This document shows positions 13,459-32,436 of a stretch of 32,658 nt of DNA, in pieces. The DNA comes from an uncultured Bacteroidota bacterium (GTDB taxonomy: Bacteria > Bacteroidota > Bacteroidia > B-17B0 > Aurantibacillaceae). Position 1 is the stretch's first letter; each line of letters starts with the position of its first letter. The position numbers and the translations under genes are program-made. Below the pieces are notes generated by a model, which was given only the letters and a program-made list of their open reading frames with translations, did not search any database and was not told the origin of the DNA. The stretch spans positions 66,686 to 99,343 of the forward strand of contig CAILKE010000016.1 in assembly GCA_903834765.1 (NCBI GenBank), read 5' to 3'.

Positions 13459-14175
13459 ATGACAACTCAATCAACTGGAATATTATATTTACTGCCTGTT
13501 AGCCTTGGTGAATGTGACTTGACTCGTGTTTTACCTAAATACAACTTTGAGATAATTAATTCATTGAGCTATTTTATCGCTGAAAATGCTAAAGACTGTA
13601 GAGCATTTTTAAAACAATGTTCTTATCCAGAAATCAGCAGAGCAGAGTTATCTTTAATTAATCAGCATAGTAATAAAGATGAATTATTATCCTATTTACA
13701 ACCTTTGTTGAAAGGCGAAAACATTGGATTAATGAGTGATGCAGGTTGCCCCGGAATTGCAGATCCAGGCGCTGATGTTATAAAATTAGCTCATCAAAAA
13801 GGCATTAAGGTTGTGCCTTTAGTTGGACCAAGTTCTATTGTACTATCCATAATGGCAAGTGGATTTAATGGCCAAAACTTTGCATTTGTTGGATACTTAC
13901 CAATCGAAAAAATAGAAAAAGCTAAGCGCATCAAGGAATTAGAGCAATTGTGTGTTAAGAATAAACAAGCGCAATTTTTTATAGAAACGCCTTATCGAAA
14001 TGGCAGCGTGTTTGAAGAATTACTAAAAACATTACAGCCCACTACACAATTATTAGTCGCCACACACATCACATTAGATGATGAAAGCATAGAAGTAAAA
14101 CCAATTTCTGCTTGGAAAAAAATTTCTCCCCCAAATTTCTCCAAAAAGCCTACTGTTTTTGGCATTTATTTTTAA
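13459..14175 (+). CDS. SAM-dependent methyltransferase, RsmI-like (tetrapyrrole methylase fold)
   Basis: Probable methyltransferase of the tetrapyrrole-methylase fold, related to RsmI, the 16S rRNA C1402 ribose 2'-O-methyltransferase. At 238 aa it lacks the C-terminal extension of standard RsmI. Seen features: TGILYLLPVSLGE at the start, in place of the usual YLVATPIGN; SLINQHSNKDE, echoing the family's HN-N/E motif; LLKGENIGLMSDAGCPGIADPGADV (SAM-site glycine loop); and VVPLVGPSSIVLSIMASGF followed by FVGYLP and FFIETPYRN. The substrate may be rRNA, but this short Bacteroidota paralogue is not characterised to my knowledge. It lies 11 nt downstream of recQ and is probably co-transcribed with it. 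Confidence 0.83.
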   Translation: MTTQSTGILYLLPVSLGECDLTRVLPKYNFEIINSLSYFIAENAKDCRAFLKQCSYPEISRAELSLINQHSNKDELLSYLQPLLKGENIGLMSDAGCPGIADPGADVIKLAHQKGIKVVPLVGPSSIVLSIMASGFNGQNFAFVGYLPIEKIEKAKRIKELEQLCVKNKQAQFFIETPYRNGSVFEELLKTLQPTTQLLVATHITLDDESIEVKPISAWKKISPPNFSKKPTVFGIYF

Positions 14176-14350: not shown

Positions 14351-17300
14351 ATGAAGAAATTAATTACATCAACTTTACTGGCCTTTTCAGTAATAACTGG
14401 ATTGGCGCAAGTGCCAGCTCACAGAACTTGTGGCACAATGGATTATCATAATTATTTGATGCAAACGCGAAAAAATTATGCAACTGATTATGCACAGTAT
14501 AATCAAATGATTGATCAGTATATCCAAAATAATCAGGCGTCATTAAATGCAAACGCAAAAAATGCGAATATTACAATTCCAGTTGTTATACACGTTTTGT
14601 ATAATACAGCCGTTCAAAATATTACAGACGCTCAAGCGATTTCACAATTTGCTGTATTGAATAACGACTTTCAGCGTTTAAATGCAGATAAAGTTAATAC
14701 ACCATCAACTTTTACCGCCGTAGCCGGAGGTGTTGGTATAACCTTTTGTTTAGCTCAACGCACACCGAGTGGAACTGCAACAACGGGTATCATTCATAAG
14801 TCTACAACCTTGACTTCTTTTACAACGGATAATAAAATTAAATCATCAGCTCAAGGTGGGGATGATCCTTGGGATGTTACTAAATATGTAAATATATGGA
14901 TAGGTAATTTAAGTGGAGGAATATTAGGGTATGGAGAATTTCCTACAGGAACACTGAGTAATACTTACGGTTTAGTGTTAAATTATACAGCTACAGGAAC
15001 TTCAGGAACAGCAGCTTTTCCTTTTAATAAAGGAAGAACAGGAACACATGAGTTTGGCCATTGCTTTAATTTAATTCATATTTGGGCTGATGCTGGACAG
15101 TGCGGTGCATCAGATCAATGCTATGATACACCTCCTCAAAAAGGAGGAACAGCAGCACCAGCAGGCTGTAACTATGGTTCACCAACTTATCCTTTATATC
15201 CTAATACCTGCACTCGTCCTCATGGAATTGGCGGTGCAAGTATGACTAACGTAAATGGGGATATGTTTATGAATTATATGGATTATACAGATGATGCTGC
15301 AATGAATATGTTTACACAACAACAATGTGTAAGAATGTTAGCAGTTGTATCTAATGCGCCATGGAATGTATTGGCAAGTTCAAATGGATGTACTCCTGTT
15401 ACTTCTTATTCTTTAGATGCGGGAATAACAAGTATTATTAAGCCTGCTAATGCAGTTGCAACCTGTGTCAATTCTGTTACACCAAGTGTCGTTTTAACTA
15501 ATGCTGGAACAGCCACTTTAACGAGTGTAAAAGTATTATATAAGATGGATGCGGCTGCAACTCAAACATTAAATTGGACGGGTTCATTAGCTGCAAATGC
15601 AAATGCAACGTTAACGCTGAATGCCTTTACGGGATTAACATCAGCAGCACACACATTTTCAGTATGGGTATCTGCTCCAAATGGTGGTGTTGATCAAGGA
15701 CCAACTAATGATAGCCAATCTTCTACATTTACTGTAACCGTAGCTGGAACAGGTGCGGCATTGCCATTTACCGAAGGATTTGAGGCAACTACCTTTCCTC
15801 CAACAAACTGGACACTTATAAACTCAAATACAATAAATGCTGCAAATACTTGGACGCGTGTTGCTAATACAACTGGTATTCCAGTTACTCCTGCATCTAC
15901 TGCTGCGGCTCGTATGGATAATTATACAGGTAATACTGATATTACGGGGCAGATTAATGCATTACGATCCCCGGCATTAAGTTTTGTTGGCGCTAATAGT
16001 TCATTGAATGTCCGTTTTGACGTGTCTCATAAACAATATGATAACACTACAAGCGATTCATTGAACGTTTATATTTCTACAGATTGTGGTGGGACATGGG
16101 TAAAGCTTTATGGTAAAGGTGATAAATCAACCCCTTCATTAATTACATCTGTAGGAACAATGACCACTGCTTATACACCAACAGCTAACGCGCAATGGCG
16201 CAGAGACAGTGTTTCACTTGCCGCTTATGTTGGACAGCCAAGTGTTTATTTAAAATTTGAATCATATAGTGGTTGGGGAAATTATTTGTGGTTAGATAAC
16301 ATTAATGTTAAATATATTTCTACAACTCTTCCTCCTGTAGCTAGCTTCTCGGTTTCTTCTCCAAAATGTGTAGGTAGTCCAATCACATTTACAGATTTAT
16401 CTACAAATTCACCAACAAGTTGGGCATGGACTTTCGCAGGAGGAACGCCATCAACATCGACGTCTCAAAATCCTAGTGTTACCTATACTGCCGCAGGTAC
16501 TTATACAGCTACTTTGCGCTCTGCGAATAGTTCAGGTACAAGTACAGCGGTTTCTCAAACTATAGCAATAATAGCAAAGCCAATAGTAGCTTCAACATCA
16601 GCAACAACATGCGTTGGTAGTTCAGCCACAATTAGTGCAACAGGCGCTTCAACGTATGCATGGAACACAGGCGCAACAACTGCAGCATTAACAACAACAC
16701 CAACAGCTAATACATCCTATACAGTAATCGGAACAGCGGCTACTGGATGTACAAATTCGGCAGTTGGAACTATTTCAGTTACAAGTTTACCAACAGTGGT
16801 AGCCAGTAGCGCAACTATATGTAATGGTAGTTCGGTATTATTAACTGGTAGTGGCGCATCAACCTACTCTTGGAGCACAGGTGCTATCACTTCAACTATT
16901 TCTGTATCACCAACAACTAATACTACTTATACAGTTACAGGTACTGCTTCTTCAGGTTGTAAAAAAACAGCAGTTGGTTCGGTAACCGTAAACGCATTAC
17001 CAACTGTATCAGCAACATCTGCAACAATTTGTGCGGGTTCAGCAGGAACATTAACAGCAAGTGGTGCATCAACCTACTCTTGGAATACTGGTGTTAATGG
17101 CTCAAGTTTATCAGCTAGCCCAACCGCAAACACCAATTATACAGTTGTTGGCTCATCAACTTCAGGTTGTACAAATTCAGCAGTTGGATCAATCATTGTT
17201 CGAAATCTCCCTGTAATTGCAGTTAACTCTTCAAGTATATGTGCTGGATCAACGGCAACATTAATTGCTTCAGGCGCTTCAACGTATTCATGGAATACAG

Positions 17301-18538
17301 GTGCAACAACTGCAGCATTAACTGCAACACCAACAGCTAATACATCTTATACAGTAATCGGAACTGCTACTAATGGCTGTAAAAATTCAGCAGTTGGAAC
17401 TATTTCAGTTACTAGTTTGCCATCAGTTGTAGCTACTAGCACAAGTATTTGTATCGGTAGTTCGGCATTATTAACAGTTAGTGGCGCATCAACCTACTCT
17501 TGGAGCACAGGCGCTGCCACTTCAACAATTTCTGTATCACCAACAGCTAATACTACTTTTACAGTTACAGGTACTGCTGCTTCAGGTTGTAAAAAAACAG
17601 CAGTTGGTTCGGTAACCGTAAACGCATTACCAAATGTAACCGCAACTTCTGCAACAATTTGCGCAGGATCAACAGGAACATTAACAGCAAGTGGTGCATC
17701 GACCTATGCTTGGAGCACTGGAGCCACTAGTCCAAATTTAGTTGATAATCCTACTTCAAATACTTCATATACTGTTGTTGGTACATCTTCAGCTGGTTGT
17801 ATTAATTCTGCAACAGGGTATATCGTTGTAGGAACTGCTCCAGTAATTTCGGTTAACTCTTCAACTATATGTGCTGGTTCAACAGCAACCTTAAACGCTA
17901 GCGGTGTTAACTCATACACTTGGAGTTCAGGTGCAAATACATCATCGATAACGGATAATCCAACAGTAACAACAGTTTATACAGTAAGTGGTAATTTATC
18001 AGGATGTGCAACTGGTGCATCAGAAACCGCAACTATTACTGTTAATAATTTACCTGTTGTATCATTAGCACCTATCAGTCAGTTGTGTATAAATAGCTCT
18101 CCAGTTGCGTTAATAGGAAGTCCAACTAATGGCACTTATACAGGCACAGGAGTTAGCGGCTCTACTTTTGATCCTTCTATCAGTGGTGCTGGAACATTTA
18201 ATATTATGTATTATTATACAGATGCTAATAATTGCAGTAATTTTGCAAGTCAGCCAGCATCAGTAGGTTTATGCACAGGCGTTTCAGAAGCATTTAATGC
18301 AGCAGCAATTTCAATTTTTCCTAATCCAGCAAAAGATGCGATATATGTGAATTTAAATTCATTGTCATTTGATAACACAACAATAGAGTTGTATGATGCG
18401 ATTGGTAAATTGGTATTAAGTCAAAAAGTAGTTGATACAATTTCAACACTTTTAATTTCCGATTTATCAAAAGGAATGTATTCTATTAGAATTGTAATGG
18501 ATTCAAATCAAGTTGTGAAACGTATTATCAAAGAATAA
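14351..18538 (+). CDS. Secreted M43 (cytophagalysin-type) metalloprotease with PKD, seven 70-aa repeats and T9SS domain
   Basis: An extracellular zinc endopeptidase of 1395 residues. Order: signal peptide (1-19); M43 catalytic domain to about 345 with zinc site HEFGHCFNLIH (His233, Glu234, His237, His243) and Met-turn NYMDY (Met310); a CARDB-like beta domain (about 352-470); a jelly-roll/MAM-like domain starting LPFTEGFEATTFPP (about 475-657); a PKD domain (about 661-743) with WAWTFAGGTP and AGTYTATLRS; seven repeats of 70-71 residues (744-1234), each with two Cys and a SGASTYSW-like core; a linker; and a type A T9SS sorting domain (about 1315-1395) starting ISIFPNPAKDAIYV. The third metzincin position before the last His is Asn240 rather than the common Gly, a known but less frequent variant. 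It stands alone; its own terminator follows. The substrate is unknown. Confidence 0.9.
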   Translation: MKKLITSTLLAFSVITGLAQVPAHRTCGTMDYHNYLMQTRKNYATDYAQYNQMIDQYIQNNQASLNANAKNANITIPVVIHVLYNTAVQNITDAQAISQFAVLNNDFQRLNADKVNTPSTFTAVAGGVGITFCLAQRTPSGTATTGIIHKSTTLTSFTTDNKIKSSAQGGDDPWDVTKYVNIWIGNLSGGILGYGEFPTGTLSNTYGLVLNYTATGTSGTAAFPFNKGRTGTHEFGHCFNLIHIWADAGQCGASDQCYDTPPQKGGTAAPAGCNYGSPTYPLYPNTCTRPHGIGGASMTNVNGDMFMNYMDYTDDAAMNMFTQQQCVRMLAVVSNAPWNVLASSNGCTPVTSYSLDAGITSIIKPANAVATCVNSVTPSVVLTNAGTATLTSVKVLYKMDAAATQTLNWTGSLAANANATLTLNAFTGLTSAAHTFSVWVSAPNGGVDQGPTNDSQSSTFTVTVAGTGAALPFTEGFEATTFPPTNWTLINSNTINAANTWTRVANTTGIPVTPASTAAARMDNYTGNTDITGQINALRSPALSFVGANSSLNVRFDVSHKQYDNTTSDSLNVYISTDCGGTWVKLYGKGDKSTPSLITSVGTMTTAYTPTANAQWRRDSVSLAAYVGQPSVYLKFESYSGWGNYLWLDNINVKYISTTLPPVASFSVSSPKCVGSPITFTDLSTNSPTSWAWTFAGGTPSTSTSQNPSVTYTAAGTYTATLRSANSSGTSTAVSQTIAIIAKPIVASTSATTCVGSSATISATGASTYAWNTGATTAALTTTPTANTSYTVIGTAATGCTNSAVGTISVTSLPTVVASSATICNGSSVLLTGSGASTYSWSTGAITSTISVSPTTNTTYTVTGTASSGCKKTAVGSVTVNALPTVSATSATICAGSAGTLTASGASTYSWNTGVNGSSLSASPTANTNYTVVGSSTSGCTNSAVGSIIVRNLPVIAVNSSSICAGSTATLIASGASTYSWNTGATTAALTATPTANTSYTVIGTATNGCKNSAVGTISVTSLPSVVATSTSICIGSSALLTVSGASTYSWSTGAATSTISVSPTANTTFTVTGTAASGCKKTAVGSVTVNALPNVTATSATICAGSTGTLTASGASTYAWSTGATSPNLVDNPTSNTSYTVVGTSSAGCINSATGYIVVGTAPVISVNSSTICAGSTATLNASGVNSYTWSSGANTSSITDNPTVTTVYTVSGNLSGCATGASETATITVNNLPVVSLAPISQLCINSSPVALIGSPTNGTYTGTGVSGSTFDPSISGAGTFNIMYYYTDANNCSNFASQPASVGLCTGVSEAFNAAAISIFPNPAKDAIYVNLNSLSFDNTTIELYDAIGKLVLSQKVVDTISTLLISDLSKGMYSIRIVMDSNQVVKRIIKE
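16580..18052 (+). repeat. Seven in-frame 210-bp repeats arranged as ABC-ABC-D
   Basis: Units start at 16580, 16790, 17000, 17210, 17420, 17630 and 17840; six are exactly 210 bp and the last 213 bp. Each encodes P-x-V, S-x-x-IC-x-GS, SGASTYxW, then YTVxG and a Gly-Cys pair. Units 1 and 4, 2 and 5, and 3 and 6 resemble each other more than their neighbours, down to long identical DNA blocks, for example around 16952 and 17582. A 630-bp three-unit block was therefore duplicated. Confidence 0.9.
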
Positions 18539-18554
18539 TATTAAACTTATCAAT

Positions 18555-18594
18555 AAAAAGAGGCTGTCTCAAAAAGTGAGATAGCCTCTTTTTT
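18555..18594 (+). terminator. Rho-independent terminator of the M43 protease gene
   Basis: AAAAAGAGGCTGTCTCA (18555-18571) pairs with TGAGATAGCCTCTTTTTT (18577-18594), with a single G-U pair and a 5-nt loop, ending in a T tract. It lies 17 nt after the protease stop. Its left arm doubles as one end of the surrounding inverted repeat. Confidence 0.8.
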
Positions 18595-18670
18595 ATTTGG
18601 ACCCCTATCAGAGTCAAAAGTCGTTTAAGCGATTCTCAGCGAATTCATTTTACTTTTGAGACAGCCTTTT
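18555..18670. mobile_element. IS-end-like inverted repeat pair, MITE or IS remnant
   Basis: AGGCTGTCTCAAAA (18561-18574) recurs inverted as TTTTGAGACAGCCT (18654-18667), 79 bp apart. I recall this type of sequence as a terminal repeat of Bacteroidota insertion sequences, but cannot name the family without a search. A second nested pair, TCAAAAGT (18613-18620) and ACTTTTGA (18652-18659), is present. No transposase fits inside, so this is either a deletion derivative, a MITE, or a terminator plus a solo end. Confidence 0.5.
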
Positions 18671-26906: not shown

Positions 26907-29900
26907 TTACTCTTTTACAAATTTCCCAATCTTTAATAATTGACCTTTTTCATCATATAATTTTATAAAATAAAGACCATTGCTAAATGATGATACATCA
27001 ATAGAAGCAGCAGCCTCTTTATTTAAAACTATTTGCCCAACACTATTTATAACTTTAATTGTTGCATATTTTATTGAACTTTTAATATATAATTGAGTAG
27101 ACGTTGGATTGGGGTAAACCTCAATATTTTGAAGTGATGCTAAATCTTCAATGCCAACAGTTGATACTAAATTTAAAGTCACTACAATAGTTGTATCACC
27201 GCAAGAACCTGCGCCAACTATACATCTAAATGTTTGATTGTTGTTACTAGAACCAACGTTGCTTATGGTTAATGTGGGTGTATTAACCCCGCTATACTGA
27301 CCAGCATTACTTAAATTTTGAAAGCCTAGCCCTAAATTTGTTTGCCATTGTAATGATGCGCCAGCTGTTGCTGATACAGTAAATACAGCACTTGTGCCCG
27401 AAAGAACCGATTGATTTGTTGGCTGAGAGGTTATTGCTGAATTAGGATCAACAGTTACAGTTAGTGTTTGTGGTGACGAAGCGCAATTTTGAGAAGAATA
27501 GCCTGTTACCGTATATGTGCTTGTGCTTATGGGGCTTACTATTGCTGAACCGCCTGAATATGAATATGTAATTGCACCACTTGAAGTAATGGTGTAACTA
27601 TTACCTGAACAAATTGTTCCATTAGAGACTGAAATAATTGGCGTTTGATTAACAGTTACGCTTAACGTTTTTGTATCGCTGCAATTATTAGATAAACCTG
27701 TAACTGTATAATTAGTGTTTATGTTTGGTGTTACTGAAATAGAGTTCGTTGTTGCTCCATTATCCCAAATGTAGCTTGTTGCACCACTTGCATTAATAAC
27801 TGCATTTGATCCTGAACAAATTGTAGCACTATTAACGGCAACAGTTGGAGTTTGATTAACATTTACGTTAACGGTTTTTGTATCACTACAGCCATTAGTT
27901 GTTCCAATAACAACATAGTTAGTATTTACAATAGGTGATACATTTAAAGAAGGAGATGTTGCTCCTGTATTCCAACTATAACTTACAGCACCACTTGCTA
28001 TTAAATTTGTAGAATTACCCGAACAGATAGTAGCATTGCTAATAGCTAAAGTTGGCGTTGCCTTTACAGTAACACTTACTGTTTTTGTGTTTATACAACC
28101 GTTAGTAGTGCCAGTAACTGTATAATTAGTGTTTACGTTTGGCGTTACTGAAATCATTGACGTTGCAGAACCTGTGTTCCAACTATAAGTAGTGGCGCCA
28201 CTTGCCGTTATGTTTGCAGAATTACCTGAACAGATAGTAGCGTTACTTACTGCAACTGTTGGAGTTGCGTATACAGTAACATTAATTGTATTTGAAGTAG
28301 CAGAACAATTATTGTTATTAGTAATTGTTACTGCATAATTACCAGCTACTGAGGCCGTATAACTTGATAGTGTTGCTGCACTGATATTTGTACCATTATT
28401 TTTCCATTGATAAGTTAAACCTATTCCCGTATTGGCATTTAGTACCAATGAATTTCCCTGACAGAAAGTTGCTGAACCACTTGTTGTTACACTTGCTATT
28501 GGTAAAGCATTAACAGTTAATGTTTGGTTACCCGCAGCATTACCAAGTGTATTTGAAATGTTAACCGCACCCGTAACAGCCACAGATGGAGTGATGGTTA
28601 TAATTGTTGAAGATACGACTGTGAATGGTACGCTGTTAGATCCAACACTAACTGAAGTAACACCTGTAAAGCCCGCACCCGTAATCGTTATTGTTTCATT
28701 TACACAAGCAGTGGTTGAAGAAATAGATGCTACTGTTGGCGGATTACCTGAATTAAACAAATCGGTGGTTGCAAAAAATGGCTGATACCTCCTTTGAATT
28801 ACTTTAAACTTACCACCTATATAAGCCTTGTCTGGTGCTAAATAAATTACCCTCACTATATCGTCAGGTTGCGGTATCCAATAGCTGACTCTATTTGATA
28901 GTGTTTTAATTACAGCGGCATTATCTATTGTCTGACCACAATTTGCATAACTAAAACCACCCCCTGAGTATAATGATGAATCAGCAGTAGCGAGTGCATT
29001 TACAGTGGTAGTGTTTGCAATACCGGTATTTAGTGAAGTAATGGTATTAGTAGTTACATTAAATTCTGCTAAACTATTAATAGCAGTATTACTTATGGAT
29101 GTAAAATTACCACCTATATATAATTTATTGCCTTTAACAGCTAATGCATTTACTGTGTTATTGGCATTAGGATCAATTGCAAGTAAACCGCTTGTTGAAA
29201 TTCGATAGGCTGCTACCCTATTTCTTGTCTGACCACCTATACTAGTAAACACCCCACCAATAAATAAAGTATCTCCACTGATAGCTAAAGCATTTATATT
29301 ATTGTTTGCAGTAGGGTTAAAAGCAGATGCTCCACCAGTTAAAGTAGATAATGAAGCAATTTTTGCACGAGCACCTCCACCAATATTAGCAAATGCTCCC
29401 CCAACAAATAGATTATTTCCTGAAAGGGCCAAAGCATTTACAGTCCCGTCTGCATTAGGATTCCAACCTGTGGCAATTCCTGTAGTGCCATTTACTTGGG
29501 CAATTCTGTTTTTGGAAATTGATCCGTTTACTGTTGTAAAGTCGCCACCCATATACAAATAGTTGCCATCCGCATAAACTGAACGAACTATGTTGTTGGT
29601 ATTCGCATCAAAGGTTAATAAAGAACCAGTGGTGGCATCTACTGCAGCTACATTGTTTCGCGCACTGGCACCTACAATGCAAAATGTGCCACCTGCAAAA
29701 ATATTCGTACTGTTGGTTGCCATTGATAGCACATTATAATTTGTTCCTTTTATACCTACTACATTAGGGTTCCAAGCATTAGCTGCACCCGAGCTAACAT
29801 TCAGGGAAGCCAAACGGCTACGAGTAGCACCCCCTATGTTTGAAAAACTACCTCCAGCAATTAAATTTCCGTTTAAAACAGACATTGAATAGACTGTACT

Positions 29901-31784
29901 ATCTGCATTAGCATTAAAACTGTTAGCTAACACATTAAGGTAATTTAACCCCGCAATATAGTTTCTTGCAGCACCACCAATAGTGGTAAATTTACCAGCA
30001 GTATATAATACATTGTTGTAAAATGCAAAATCATGTATACGGTTATTTGCAGCAAAATCATAAGGATCAATTGTAAAACCTGGCAATGTATATCCAGCAC
30101 CTCTTCCCTTTGCAACTCCCGAAATATTTGTAAAATCACCACCCACATATAATTTAGTACCGTTAACCAACAGTTTGTAAACTGCGGCATTAGGGTTAGG
30201 TGCCCAAGTAGTAGCTTGTAAATAGGTGGTATCAAGCACACCCAAATAATTTCGGGTTGCCCCGCCAATAGAGGTAAAATTACCACCCAATATTATTTTA
30301 TCGGCATAAAGTTGCATGGTTCTGACTGTGTTGTTACAGTATGCGTTCCAGAATAATGGAGTACCTGTTGTTTTATCAATTTTTGCAATATAATTATTTA
30401 CTAAACCTTTAATGGTGGTAAATGCACCTCCTACATATAAATTTGAACCATACATAGCAAGTGTATAAACAGCTCCGTTAGGAACAGGTTTAAAATTAAC
30501 ATCTACCGAACCATTTGCATTAATATGCGCAAGATTAGATACTGTATTATAATTACCAACTCTGTTAAATGTGCCCCCAATATACCATCCTCCATTACCA
30601 TCTGGCAGGGTAACATTCACAGTACCATATACTCTTGGCATGGTTGTATTGGCTGCACCACTAATCTCACTAATTTGTGCACTACTACCAGTAACTGGAC
30701 CCACAGCATTAAAATCTCCTCCATAATATACTGAGTTACCATTGCGATGAATAGTATATACCTCGCCATTAGGTCCGACCCAATTGTCTTGAGCACCAAT
30801 GGTAGAAACGTTTAGTGAAGCTGTGTAGTCTTGATTACCGGTAAAAGAAGTATTGGTAACTTGACAAGTATAAGAACCTGAGCTGCAAACTGTAATAGAT
30901 TGAGTTGTTTCCCCTGTTGACCATAGGTATGTTTCACCACTAGCTGCTGCTGTAAGAGTGACACATTCCCCATTTATTAATGGGTTAGAAGTGGAAGAAG
31001 TTATTAATGGTGAAGACTCGTAAAACTCTATTTCTCCAATTGATAAAGAATTTACCGTTTGTGAACAATTCCAGTTATAATAGCGATCATAAGGGGGTGT
31101 ACTATTTATTTTATAGGAAGCATTTATAGTTTGCGTAAATGCTTGAATGCTTGGAAAATAAATTCTAAAGAATCTTGAAGCTTTGTTATCAATTGGAATT
31201 GAAAAATCAATATTTTGTCCAGAAATAACCAAGGAAGTGTCTTTTATTTGTTGCCATGGTCCAAAAACTGAAGCACCTGTGAAAATTTGAATTTGAAAAG
31301 TACTTGATGAAGGGGTGTTAAATTGAAAACTAGTGTAACCTGTGCCAAGTCCACCGATGCAACTTCCTGAATATGTTGAACAATAAGTATTAGAACAAGC
31401 CAGACCAGAAGGACTTGTAATACAACCGGAAGCTATACCGCATGCCTTTAATATTACTTTTGAATTTATAATAGTTCTTTGAATATCTAAAATCATCTCG
31501 GAGCCAGATGCAAAATACCCTTTCTGTAAATTCCAATTCATACATTGGCTTGAAAAAGTATTATCTATAGCTCCTGAAGATGTTTTTGCAGGTGAACAGC
31601 AACCAGAGTAGCTTCCAGATAAAAGAGCTGGAGTTGTAAGATTACCATCAAAAAGCTGAGAAGGATTTGAAGGTAAGGACCCAATACCGCTGACATAAAA
31701 ACTAGTTTGGTTTGGAATAAGTGTTTGACCATTTATTATAAGCTTTAAATTTATTACTAAAAATAATATTAGATTTTTTTTCAT
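26907..31784 (-). CDS. Giant secreted T9SS-sorted protein with 14 DUF5122-type propeller repeats and Ig-like repeats
   Basis: A 1625-residue surface or secreted protein. The start at 31784 gives a direct signal peptide (MKKNLILFLVINLKLIINGQ); a longer frame to 31829 is unlikely. Order: F5/8-type-C-like galactose-binding domain (about 20-255, ending SLSIGEIEFYE, rich in Cys); an Ig-like domain (255-328); 14 repeats with the core Y-x-GG-x-F-T-x-I (about 330-1010), typical of DUF5122/delta-60 beta-propellers; an IPT/TIG domain (about 1015-1093); an Ig-like domain; four 69-residue Cys-containing repeats (1174-1448); an Ig-like domain with SQPTNQSVLSGTSAVF; and a type A T9SS domain starting IEVYPNPTSTQLYI. 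No catalytic motif is seen, so binding or adhesion is the likely role. It starts 14 nt after the stop of the PD-(D/E)XK gene. Confidence 0.88.
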   Translation of the reverse strand: MKKNLILFLVINLKLIINGQTLIPNQTSFYVSGIGSLPSNPSQLFDGNLTTPALLSGSYSGCCSPAKTSSGAIDNTFSSQCMNWNLQKGYFASGSEMILDIQRTIINSKVILKACGIASGCITSPSGLACSNTYCSTYSGSCIGGLGTGYTSFQFNTPSSSTFQIQIFTGASVFGPWQQIKDTSLVISGQNIDFSIPIDNKASRFFRIYFPSIQAFTQTINASYKINSTPPYDRYYNWNCSQTVNSLSIGEIEFYESSPLITSSTSNPLINGECVTLTAAASGETYLWSTGETTQSITVCSSGSYTCQVTNTSFTGNQDYTASLNVSTIGAQDNWVGPNGEVYTIHRNGNSVYYGGDFNAVGPVTGSSAQISEISGAANTTMPRVYGTVNVTLPDGNGGWYIGGTFNRVGNYNTVSNLAHINANGSVDVNFKPVPNGAVYTLAMYGSNLYVGGAFTTIKGLVNNYIAKIDKTTGTPLFWNAYCNNTVRTMQLYADKIILGGNFTSIGGATRNYLGVLDTTYLQATTWAPNPNAAVYKLLVNGTKLYVGGDFTNISGVAKGRGAGYTLPGFTIDPYDFAANNRIHDFAFYNNVLYTAGKFTTIGGAARNYIAGLNYLNVLANSFNANADSTVYSMSVLNGNLIAGGSFSNIGGATRSRLASLNVSSGAANAWNPNVVGIKGTNYNVLSMATNSTNIFAGGTFCIVGASARNNVAAVDATTGSLLTFDANTNNIVRSVYADGNYLYMGGDFTTVNGSISKNRIAQVNGTTGIATGWNPNADGTVNALALSGNNLFVGGAFANIGGGARAKIASLSTLTGGASAFNPTANNNINALAISGDTLFIGGVFTSIGGQTRNRVAAYRISTSGLLAIDPNANNTVNALAVKGNKLYIGGNFTSISNTAINSLAEFNVTTNTITSLNTGIANTTTVNALATADSSLYSGGGFSYANCGQTIDNAAVIKTLSNRVSYWIPQPDDIVRVIYLAPDKAYIGGKFKVIQRRYQPFFATTDLFNSGNPPTVASISSTTACVNETITITGAGFTGVTSVSVGSNSVPFTVVSSTIITITPSVAVTGAVNISNTLGNAAGNQTLTVNALPIASVTTSGSATFCQGNSLVLNANTGIGLTYQWKNNGTNISAATLSSYTASVAGNYAVTITNNNNCSATSNTINVTVYATPTVAVSNATICSGNSANITASGATTYSWNTGSATSMISVTPNVNTNYTVTGTTNGCINTKTVSVTVKATPTLAISNATICSGNSTNLIASGAVSYSWNTGATSPSLNVSPIVNTNYVVIGTTNGCSDTKTVNVNVNQTPTVAVNSATICSGSNAVINASGATSYIWDNGATTNSISVTPNINTNYTVTGLSNNCSDTKTLSVTVNQTPIISVSNGTICSGNSYTITSSGAITYSYSGGSAIVSPISTSTYTVTGYSSQNCASSPQTLTVTVDPNSAITSQPTNQSVLSGTSAVFTVSATAGASLQWQTNLGLGFQNLSNAGQYSGVNTPTLTISNVGSSNNNQTFRCIVGAGSCGDTTIVVTLNLVSTVGIEDLASLQNIEVYPNPTSTQLYIKSSIKYATIKVINSVGQIVLNKEAAASIDVSSFSNGLYFIKLYDEKGQLLKIGKFVKE
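27441..28265 (-). repeat. Four in-frame 207-bp Ig-like repeats
   Basis: Units start at 28265, 28058, 27851 and 27644, an exact 207-bp spacing. Each encodes TP-x-(V/L/I), S/N-x-TICSG, SGA, then Y-x-VxG, and two Cys. They match the 70-residue units of the M43 protease at the pattern level, so both belong to the same module family. Confidence 0.85.
28750..30795 (-). repeat. Array of 14 propeller-blade repeats with GG-x-F core
   Basis: The cores, in order, are YYGGDF, YIGGTF, YVGGAF, ILGGNF, YVGGDF, YTAGKF, IAGGSF, FAGGTF, YMGGDF, FVGGAF, FIGGVF, YIGGNF, YSGGGF and YIGGKF. Spacing is about 45-50 residues. Between cores the pattern N-x-(I/L)-A-x-(L/V), then W-x-PN, then V-x-x-L recurs, as in DUF5122/delta-60 repeats. 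Confidence 0.8.
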
Positions 31785-31797
31785 TTTATTTAGTTGG

Positions 31798-32436
31798 TTA
31801 ATTATTAACATTATTATTTTTGAACTCATAAATATTCCACATTTTTTTTCTGCCTTTAAATAAGCGCAATGCTATAACTACATTATGTTTTATGACGCAT
31901 TCTAACATTTTTTTACTCATTCCAAACTCCAATTTCCTTTCTAAATCTTTTTTAGAGCCAGTATATATAAAAACAGCATTTTTAAATTGTAAAGCGGAAA
32001 GCTTGTAAAACAATAATTTTTGTATATCATTAATAATATTAATTCTACTTGCACCATCCATTTTTAACTCAGCAACCAACAACTGATTATCTATATTATC
32101 CTGACCAGTATGAAAAACAATATCAGGAGAAATTTTTTTTGGATGAAAATCCCCAATACATAAATTGTTAATAATAGCTGAAGGCATTTTGGTTTTCTCT
32201 AAATGAAGTTTTATGTGTTTCACTAAATCCGTATGGATTCTTCCAACTTCATAATATCCATTATCCTGTAATTTTCTTAACTGATGGTAAAGTTCTGCAT
32301 TAAAAACACGCTCAGGCTTTTGTAAAATATTTTCATTACCTAAATGTCTCATTTGAAAATATTCTTCACCAACCTGATTTAGTCCGGCAATTAAAAAATT
32401 TTCAGATGGTGTTAATGTTTGTTTTTCGACTATCAT
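31798..32436 (-). CDS. PD-(D/E)XK nuclease-fold protein of unknown role
   Basis: A 212-residue protein without signal peptide, so cytoplasmic. The region ISPDIVFHTGQDNIDNQLLVAELKMD carries Pro104-Asp105 and, after a hairpin, Glu123-x-Lys125, the PD...(E)xK arrangement of restriction-endonuclease-like folds. An upstream Glu48 in VFNAELYHQLRKL could complete the metal site. A helix follows with DIQKLLFYKLSAL, again as in the fold. This is pattern-based; I do not recognise a specific family, and methylase or helicase partners that would make it a restriction system are absent. The C-terminus is basic, with FKGRKKMWNIYEF. It lies 14 nt upstream of the giant T9SS gene in the same direction. DNA or RNA cleavage is inferred; it could equally be an inactive relative. 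Confidence 0.65.
   Translation of the reverse strand: MIVEKQTLTPSENFLIAGLNQVGEEYFQMRHLGNENILQKPERVFNAELYHQLRKLQDNGYYEVGRIHTDLVKHIKLHLEKTKMPSAIINNLCIGDFHPKKISPDIVFHTGQDNIDNQLLVAELKMDGASRINIINDIQKLLFYKLSALQFKNAVFIYTGSKKDLERKLEFGMSKKMLECVIKHNVVIALRLFKGRKKMWNIYEFKNNNVNN

Follow-up and report, generated by a model that had tools for sequence, protein, structure and literature searches.

Copying in a three-unit register within the Ig-like stalk array of a predicted T9SS-exported M43 metalloprotease gene

The locus and its repeat array

The stretch of DNA analysed here (the window, 32,658 nucleotides of contig CAILKE010000016.1 from an uncultured Bacteroidota bacterium of the Aurantibacillaceae) encodes a predicted metalloprotease whose immunoglobulin (Ig)-like stalk consists of seven tandem units of ~70 residues in the order A-B-C-(D/A hybrid)-B-C-D. 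The letters denote unit types named from the four-unit array of the closest relative found, labelled G001; the window's own genome is labelled G000. An initial annotation had proposed that a three-module block of this array was duplicated recently and as a unit. Copying in a three-unit register in this lineage stands up to our analysis, and a single clean and recent 630-bp duplication does not. The gene, which is targeted by its predicted tail to the type IX secretion system (T9SS), and its units are as follows.

14351 to 18538, plus strand: gene for a 1395-residue M43 metalloprotease, T9SS-targeted and bearing an Ig-like stalk of tandem units, a single open frame of 4188 bp
16580 to 16789, plus strand: unit 1, type A; 79.0% identical to unit 4 and 77% to G001 unit 1
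16790 to 16999, plus strand: unit 2, type B; 91.0% to unit 5 and 77% to G001 unit 2
17000 to 17209, plus strand: unit 3, type C; 76% to G001 unit 3, its 3' part (17090-17209) being just 62% like unit 6
17210 to 17419, plus strand: unit 4, D/A hybrid; D-like over its first 60 bp (85% to unit 7) and A-like beyond
17420 to 17629, plus strand: unit 5, type B; 91.0% to unit 2 and 77% to G001 unit 2
17630 to 17839, plus strand: unit 6, type C; 71.9% to unit 3 and 78% to G001 unit 3
17840 to 18052, plus strand: unit 7, type D, more divergent; 82% to G001 unit 4

Units 1-6 are each 210 bp long, align without gaps and share one reading frame across 16580-17839, so that the two in-register triplets 630 bp apart of the initial annotation are present as described. 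The closest pairs are also those it predicted: nucleotide identity is 79.0% for units 1/4, 91.0% for 2/5 and 71.9% for 3/6, against 56.2-64.8% for the remaining 12 of the 15 pairs. Pairs at a lag of three units thus fill the top three places of 15, for which the combinatorial chance is 1/455 if units are exchangeable, and we conclude from these pair identities that the triplet structure is real. The same ordering is seen in the protein, where units three apart share 75.7, 84.3 and 64.3% of residues (about 75% averaged over the 210-residue block) and adjacent units within 1-6 share 50-61%. The most similar units therefore lie at a lag greater than one, the pattern by which multi-domain block duplication is recognised. 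Long identical DNA between triplets, for which units 2 and 5 had been the example, is likewise found, the longest identical run at a lag of 630 bp being 54 bp (16950-17003) and almost wholly within unit 2. Tandem Repeats Finder reported a 210-bp array at 16850-17718. Codon permutation of the lag-630 identity (0/10,000) marks the high-identity tract as non-random, whereas a shuffle of the order of all seven units, scored as the best of all lags, gave a p of 0.056, which is weak because seven units permit few arrangements.

A shared tract that begins and ends inside units

Third-position identity is uneven along the triplet (65.7% for units 1/4, 90.0% for 2/5 and 57.1% for 3/6), and uniform similarity along the block, which we had taken as the mark of a single clean event, was not observed. 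The strongly shared tract, found as the maximal-scoring lag-630 segment, is ~444 bp long and 89.9% identical between its two copies.

16641 to 17084, plus strand: strongly shared tract, copy 1
17271 to 17714, plus strand: strongly shared tract, copy 2, the lag-630 partner of copy 1

Both ends of the tract fall inside units (its start at ~16641 lies in unit 1) and not at unit boundaries, and a second lag-630 segment of 88% identity covers 17213-17264. Taken by part, lag-630 identity amounts to 89.3% over 450 bp and 61.7% over the 120 bp of 17090-17209, which form the 3' end of unit 3 (the C end). The proportion of synonymous differences (pS) between the two copies of this C end in units 3 and 6 is 0.65, exceeding the divergence between species, against a pS of 0.20 between the block copies (Fisher p 2.8e-6, from rounded counts). 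Unit 4 changes character along its length: its first two steps of 30 bp are 87 and 83% identical to unit 7 and 50 and 57% to unit 1, and its later steps are 90, 90, 97, 77 and 93% identical to unit 1. A C end of such divergence and a hybrid fourth unit are at odds with the idea of a block duplicated as a unit, and so is a tree of whole units in which 2/5 is the sole sister pair (support 100/99), unit 1 joining G001 unit 1 (94/58) and unit 3 joining G001 unit 3 (99/41), each with weak support in the Shimodaira-Hasegawa-like approximate likelihood ratio test (SH-aLRT). This topology agrees with a mosaic of a copied block and a C end that was either not copied or replaced later.

Dating the copying against the closest relative

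The complete array of G001 has four units in the order A-B-C-D, of which unit 1 corresponds to window unit 1, unit 2 equally to units 2 and 5 (77% each), unit 3 to units 3 and 6, and unit 4 to unit 7. Synonymous divergence (dS) between G001 and the window is 0.71 for PhoH, 0.79 for RecQ and 0.79 for the M43 gene from its catalytic to its PKD region; since the neighbours match the M43 region, the G001 gene is a fair orthologue or co-orthologue. Within the shared block, dS is 0.23 between the copies (0.13 for units 2/5 alone) and 0.92 and 0.93 from the copies to G001. Site patterns over the 450-bp block point the same way, with 74 sites at which the two copies agree against G001, 21 uniting copy 1 with G001 and 18 uniting copy 2 with G001; at third codon positions the corresponding counts are 53, 9 and 9. 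These site patterns, and a dS of 0.23 set beside that between the species, place the copying of the block later than the species split, and we hold with high confidence that DNA was copied in a three-unit register in this lineage after that split, by whatever route. A dS of 0.23 is far above strain level, and the copying is to that extent older than the "recent" event first proposed. The 120-bp C end shows the opposite pattern (2 sites uniting the two copies, 14 uniting copy 1 with G001 and 22 uniting copy 2 with G001), and with its divergence greater than that between species it was either left uncopied after the split or later replaced.

A second, 5'-truncated M43 copy, G001b, lies upstream in G001, on a contig that ends inside the G001b array. 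The partial unit preceding its B-C-D units is D-like, with 86% identity to the terminal unit of G001b and 64% to that of the window gene over 108 bp, and this internal D stems from another, independent round of copying, likewise at a lag of three units and again after the species split. Between the tandem M43 copies of G001 (L061, G001:C86, ~6700-6621) lies DNA that matches the tail of the RsmI gene (window positions 14096-14175) and looks like a scar left by whole-gene tandem duplication.

Array length and unit types in relatives

The protein has some match in each of the 41 genomes searched, G000 among them, many of the listed ones via the repeats only. A single-unit profile served to count units in genes that combine M43 with a complete array in 12 genomes, again including the window's own; one genome per species was compared, and the variation in length is thus between species. 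Copy number at related loci, which the initial annotation had expected to vary, ranges from 3 to 13 units in these 12 genes, with seven in the window's gene (G000) against four in G001. The other counts are seven in G006, six in G024, G005 and G009, eight in G013, 13 in G003, 11 in G004, three in G015 and four in each of G014 and G018. G023, with 13 detected units at wider spacing, was excluded from unit comparisons, and in G012, G017 and G019 contig ends truncate the M43 genes. When the genus was searched with the catalytic part, E 1e-100 was passed by 13 of 20 genomes, the window's own among them, and G000 gave one match and no second. The order RsmI then M43 is found in eight of the 19 stretches compared (G003, G004, G005, G009, G012, G013, G014 and G017); in five further RsmI stretches (G002, G006, G007, G008 and G016) no M43 gene was seen beside RsmI in the DNA fetched. 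Stalkless M43 genes with a sorting-type tail also occur: two of 738 and 742 residues in G005 (L161, G005:C21, 4567-9509), which directly precede a third, six-unit M43 gene in tandem, and one of 737 residues in G019 (L074, G019:C33, 306-2516).

A tree of 76 units, drawn from 12 arrays with G024 omitted, gathers all 12 terminal units and four internal units into a single D clade (100/99); its bootstrap values had yet to converge completely, and the letter composition of the G006 rows is unusual. The four internal D units are G003 unit 5, G004 unit 5, G006 unit 4 and G013 unit 4. In the arrays compared, the terminal unit type D is thus kept while the remainder grows, or else is copied inward.

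Routes to the hybrid array

We tentatively favour, slightly and with a rough probability of 0.45, gene conversion in a three-unit register onto an already longer array. An ancestral array of more than four units would have carried an internal D-type unit, as arrays of relatives do, and non-reciprocal exchange would have laid the 3' part of A, all of B and the 5' part of C over the 3' part of D, B and the 5' part of C. Such an exchange would make the hybrid unit 4 and would leave the old C ends different. Conversion is favoured because no good C-end donor was found outside the gene, because relatives carry internal D units and because the D-like beginning of unit 4 does not clearly postdate the split between the species. 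In that 61-bp start, site patterns of four uniting units 4 and 7, none uniting unit 4 with G001 and five uniting unit 7 with G001 slightly favour an old internal D. Several points weigh against conversion. It requires the ancestral array to have been longer and that of G001 to have contracted, and so more events than a simple duplication; the D-like start offers too few bases to decide between the routes, its pS of 6/17 compared with 25/126 in the block giving a Fisher p of 0.21; the internal D of G001b is young and lineage-specific and is therefore by itself no proof of an ancestral internal D; and the dS values rest on 17-126 synonymous sites, with the high ones near saturation.

A single 630-bp tandem duplication, by unequal crossing-over in an A-B-C-D array with breakpoints in D and A (~16641/17271), is a serious competitor that we place somewhat below even odds. 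It would produce the hybrid unit 4 in one step and would suit a G001 array shorter by exactly three units, and the high lag-630 similarity over 16641-17084 and 17213-17264 spans 624 bp, close to the period; that span, however, is equally expected under conversion. Duplication must also be followed by the replacement, or the rapid divergence, of ~120 bp where unit 3 or unit 6 ends, as 17090-17209 is only 61.7% identical at lag 630, with a synonymous divergence greater than that between species, and no donor for the C end was found outside the gene. A donor elsewhere in the assembled genome was considered and rejected, the best match beyond the gene being 69% over 91 bp; a late overwrite from a paralogue is therefore disfavoured. 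The same product would result if two tandem M43 genes had lost the DNA between the first D and the second A and so joined two A-B-C-D arrays, and sequence alone therefore cannot separate fusion from duplication. Tandem M43 genes do occur at the locus in relatives (two in G001, three in G005), and diverged paralogous arrays would account for the patchy similarity; but fusion requires a large deletion, and neither the open frames beside the window gene nor the catalytic search of G000, with its one match, revealed a remnant of a second M43 gene, which leaves this route unlikely. Least probable, and very unlikely, is an artefact of short-read assembly. Related arrays do lie at contig ends, as that of G001b does, but the window array sits within a 99-kb contig, its frame is intact through all units, and an artefact is improbable because the copies differ by ~10% in the shared tract and have no identical run longer than 54 bp.

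Three-unit periodicity in other arrays

A first survey of 22 rows, representing 21 distinct arrays, found the best-matching pair three units apart in eight, the window gene included. In a pre-set test, 60 further regions yielded 53 arrays, of which 21 had their best pair three apart (expected 8.3; 0/20,000 simulations as high), while distances of one, two and four accounted for 17 (expected 11.6), 14 (9.9) and one (6.6). These regions were hand-picked from the listed matches to the window protein, itself a period-3 query, and include many orthologues; such selection, together with common descent, may account for the excess. One N-terminal group of eight members contributes seven of the 21 distance-3 arrays, and after weighting by N-terminal group distance 3 accounts for 10.9 of 33 (expected 5.4).

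Samples selected through the Ig_7 model gave another picture. Among 30 arrays of the class, obtained from 40 regions hand-picked among the Ig_7 matches listed, the best pair was three apart in four (expected 4.5), one apart in 13 (6.1), two apart in eight (5.3) and five apart in five (2.8). In the window's own family, again from 40 regions hand-picked among the Ig_7 matches listed, distance 3 was found in two of nine arrays with the 70-residue profile (expected 1.5) and in three of 33 with an iterated profile (expected 5.1). For want of an excess in the Ig_7-selected samples, we rejected the idea that Ig_7 stalks generally follow a three-unit period. We likewise rejected the proposal, based on a misfolding argument, that close copies avoid adjacency: the top pair is adjacent in seven of the 21 distinct arrays of the first survey, where ~5.5 would be random, and adjacent top pairs exceed expectation in the later sets (17/53 against 11.6, 13/30 against 6.1, and 14/33 against 6.9 with the iterated profile). 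In other families of the class the best pair is five apart in L286, L287, L291, L296 and L297, and in L304 the lag-5 mean is the highest.

Within the genus, a second gene of G000 on contig C25 (L389, 2590-7719) encodes a 1710-residue protein in which at least 11 of the 13 units fall into triplets. Its unit pairs 6/9 and 7/10 are 96% identical, and its shared tract of 558 bp at lag 633 is shorter than the period, as in the window gene. Relatives of this gene in G003, G004 and G017 are about 39% alike over the first 500 residues. In a quick unit tree with few columns and many forks left open, units at the third position of its triplets cluster between species (SH-aLRT 96), as do those at the second (91), first-position units do not resolve as a group, and window units 1-6 form a separate group (99). 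A partial G001 gene has lag-3 pairs of 73, 81 and 78%. Three-unit super-repeats thus probably arose at least twice in the genus, and the periodicity is real in places within it and not general. That structure favours steps of three Ig-like domains, for example because three make one turn of a helical rod and so keep domain faces in register, is doubtful: in its favour are the 21 of 53 arrays at distance 3, with one at distance four, and the G000:C25 triplets of separate origin, and the samples drawn with the Ig_7 model, having no excess, count against it. A 3980-residue open frame in G016 (L228, G016:C33, 3606-15545) has 41 consecutive Ig-like units with raised identity at lags 3 and 6.

The predicted protein and its surroundings

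Pfam models above cut-off in the 1395-residue protein are Peptidase_M43, PKD_4, PKD, Ig_7 (PF19081, 36.6 bits, cut-off 27.3) and Por_Secre_tail, and the features outside the array are placed as follows.

14861 to 15349, plus strand: M43 catalytic domain, residues 171-333 (PF05572, 54.1 bits, cut-off 23)
15047 to 15079, plus strand: zinc motif HEFGHCFNLIH, residues 233-243, with HExxH at residue 233
16331 to 16570, plus strand: PKD domain, residues 661-740 (PF18911, 43.2 bits)
18314 to 18535, plus strand: T9SS type A C-terminal sorting domain (PF18962, 49 bits, cut-off 27)

The protein contains HExxHxxxxxH, which we take to be the zinc-binding motif of M43 metallopeptidases. Its sorting tail also matches TIGR04183 (47.3 bits, cut-off 23, residues 1322-1395), and the genome, of 3.6 Mb in 79 contigs, encodes a PorU sortase (NF033707, 1260.7 bits, cut-off 420) and yields, at E 0.001, 130 matches to Por_Secre_tail, a few of them under the curated cut-off. 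The sortase and the tail matches make T9SS export credible, and the product is probably, as predicted from these signatures, a T9SS-exported M43 metalloprotease at the cell surface. Among the best 80 of 585 matches to the catalytic part, the five best named ones are metagenome-assembled Bacteroidetes bacteria.

The stalk units 3-5 were modelled from 65 sequences, five of them from the window, with a mean predicted local distance difference test score (pLDDT) of 97.2 and a predicted template modelling score (pTM) of 0.74, and every modelled unit contains two invariant cysteines, which in the first are C11 and C57. In a fold search the best solved matches were segments of the Aureispira sp. grappling hook protein A (GhpA; PDB 9flw, 9flp and others), identified by the structure titles, with three domains superposed at Z 12.8 and a root-mean-square deviation (rmsd) of 3.8 over 208 residues (9flw) or an rmsd of 3.1 over 209 (9g8b, 9flx). 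Many unrelated Ig folds (Hoc, NCAM, titin) superpose at Z 8-10, and a sequence profile at E 0.01 finds an Ig-like domain protein (9ncf_S) and a tail protein (9c2d_S) but not GhpA. The modelled fold match therefore supports a stalk-like role, not a function shared with GhpA. Most likely the Ig-like rod would space the catalytic head away from the outer membrane, and given the sorting tail and the genomic PorU it is plausible that stalk length may set the distance from the surface, as the initial annotation had it.

Downstream of the stop codon lies a hairpin with arms at 18555-18571 and 18577-18593, whose first arm has a further inverted copy at 18654-18670; this element (18555-18670) has partial matches at five other places in the genome and resembles a repeated terminator-type element. 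At the position 3' of the gene, G001 has an additional gene for an 895-residue Ig-repeat protein. The window's second large protein, encoded at 26907-31829 on the minus strand, combines a DUF5122 beta-propeller with Ig-like repeats and a T9SS sorting tail.

Discussion

Multi-domain block duplication in domain repeats, often in mid-array, was described in 2006 by Bjorklund, Ekman and Elofsson (PMC1553488). There, a method figure has a three-domain unit duplicated such that domains at distance three are most alike, as in the window, and expansion is often in mid-array, as in a window array that keeps its terminal D unit. The present case differs in that IG domains there grow mostly by one and perhaps by two, whereas the step here is three, and in that the survey covered 24 proteomes with more repeats in eukaryotes, whereas the window array is a bacterial T9SS stalk whose shared tract breaks inside units. 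Length-variable stalks as a regulatory device have been set out as Periscope Proteins (Whelan et al. 2021, PMC8201768). The resemblance lies in an N-terminal functional head, a tandem Ig-like stalk of variable length and a C-terminal surface-targeting signal; the repeats of more than 50 residues at 80% identity or above that define the class are not found in the window array, the head there binds ligand and here is a protease, and variation in array length was here seen between species. For T9SS cargo of Porphyromonas gingivalis, PMC5445135 describes both release and anchoring to A-type lipopolysaccharide (A-LPS) after tail cleavage. CHU_C and Por_Secre_tail are treated as anchors in PMC8286594. 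The CHU_C-associated Ig-like family Ig_7 is above cut-off in 112 of the 119 genomes we sampled from the class, and Ig_7 arrays of Bacteroidota have a median unit of at least 75 residues in 29 of the 30 Ig_7-selected cases, longer than the ~70 residues of the window units. Among the papers listed by searches on bacterial surface higher-order repeats and on gene conversion and repeat number, titles and abstract openings held nothing on this repeat family, which is not to claim its absence from print.

Block duplication of domains and variable-length stalks are thus already known, and the window array is a further instance of an ordinary mechanism. What it offers is a dated, base-resolved case of stalk change via recombination between units three apart. 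Recombination at a three-unit lag leaves hybrid units and patchy similarity, and a neat ABC-ABC dot plot need not imply a single clean duplication. The same catalytic module occurs in relatives without a stalk or with 3-13 units, a natural series for the function of stalk length.

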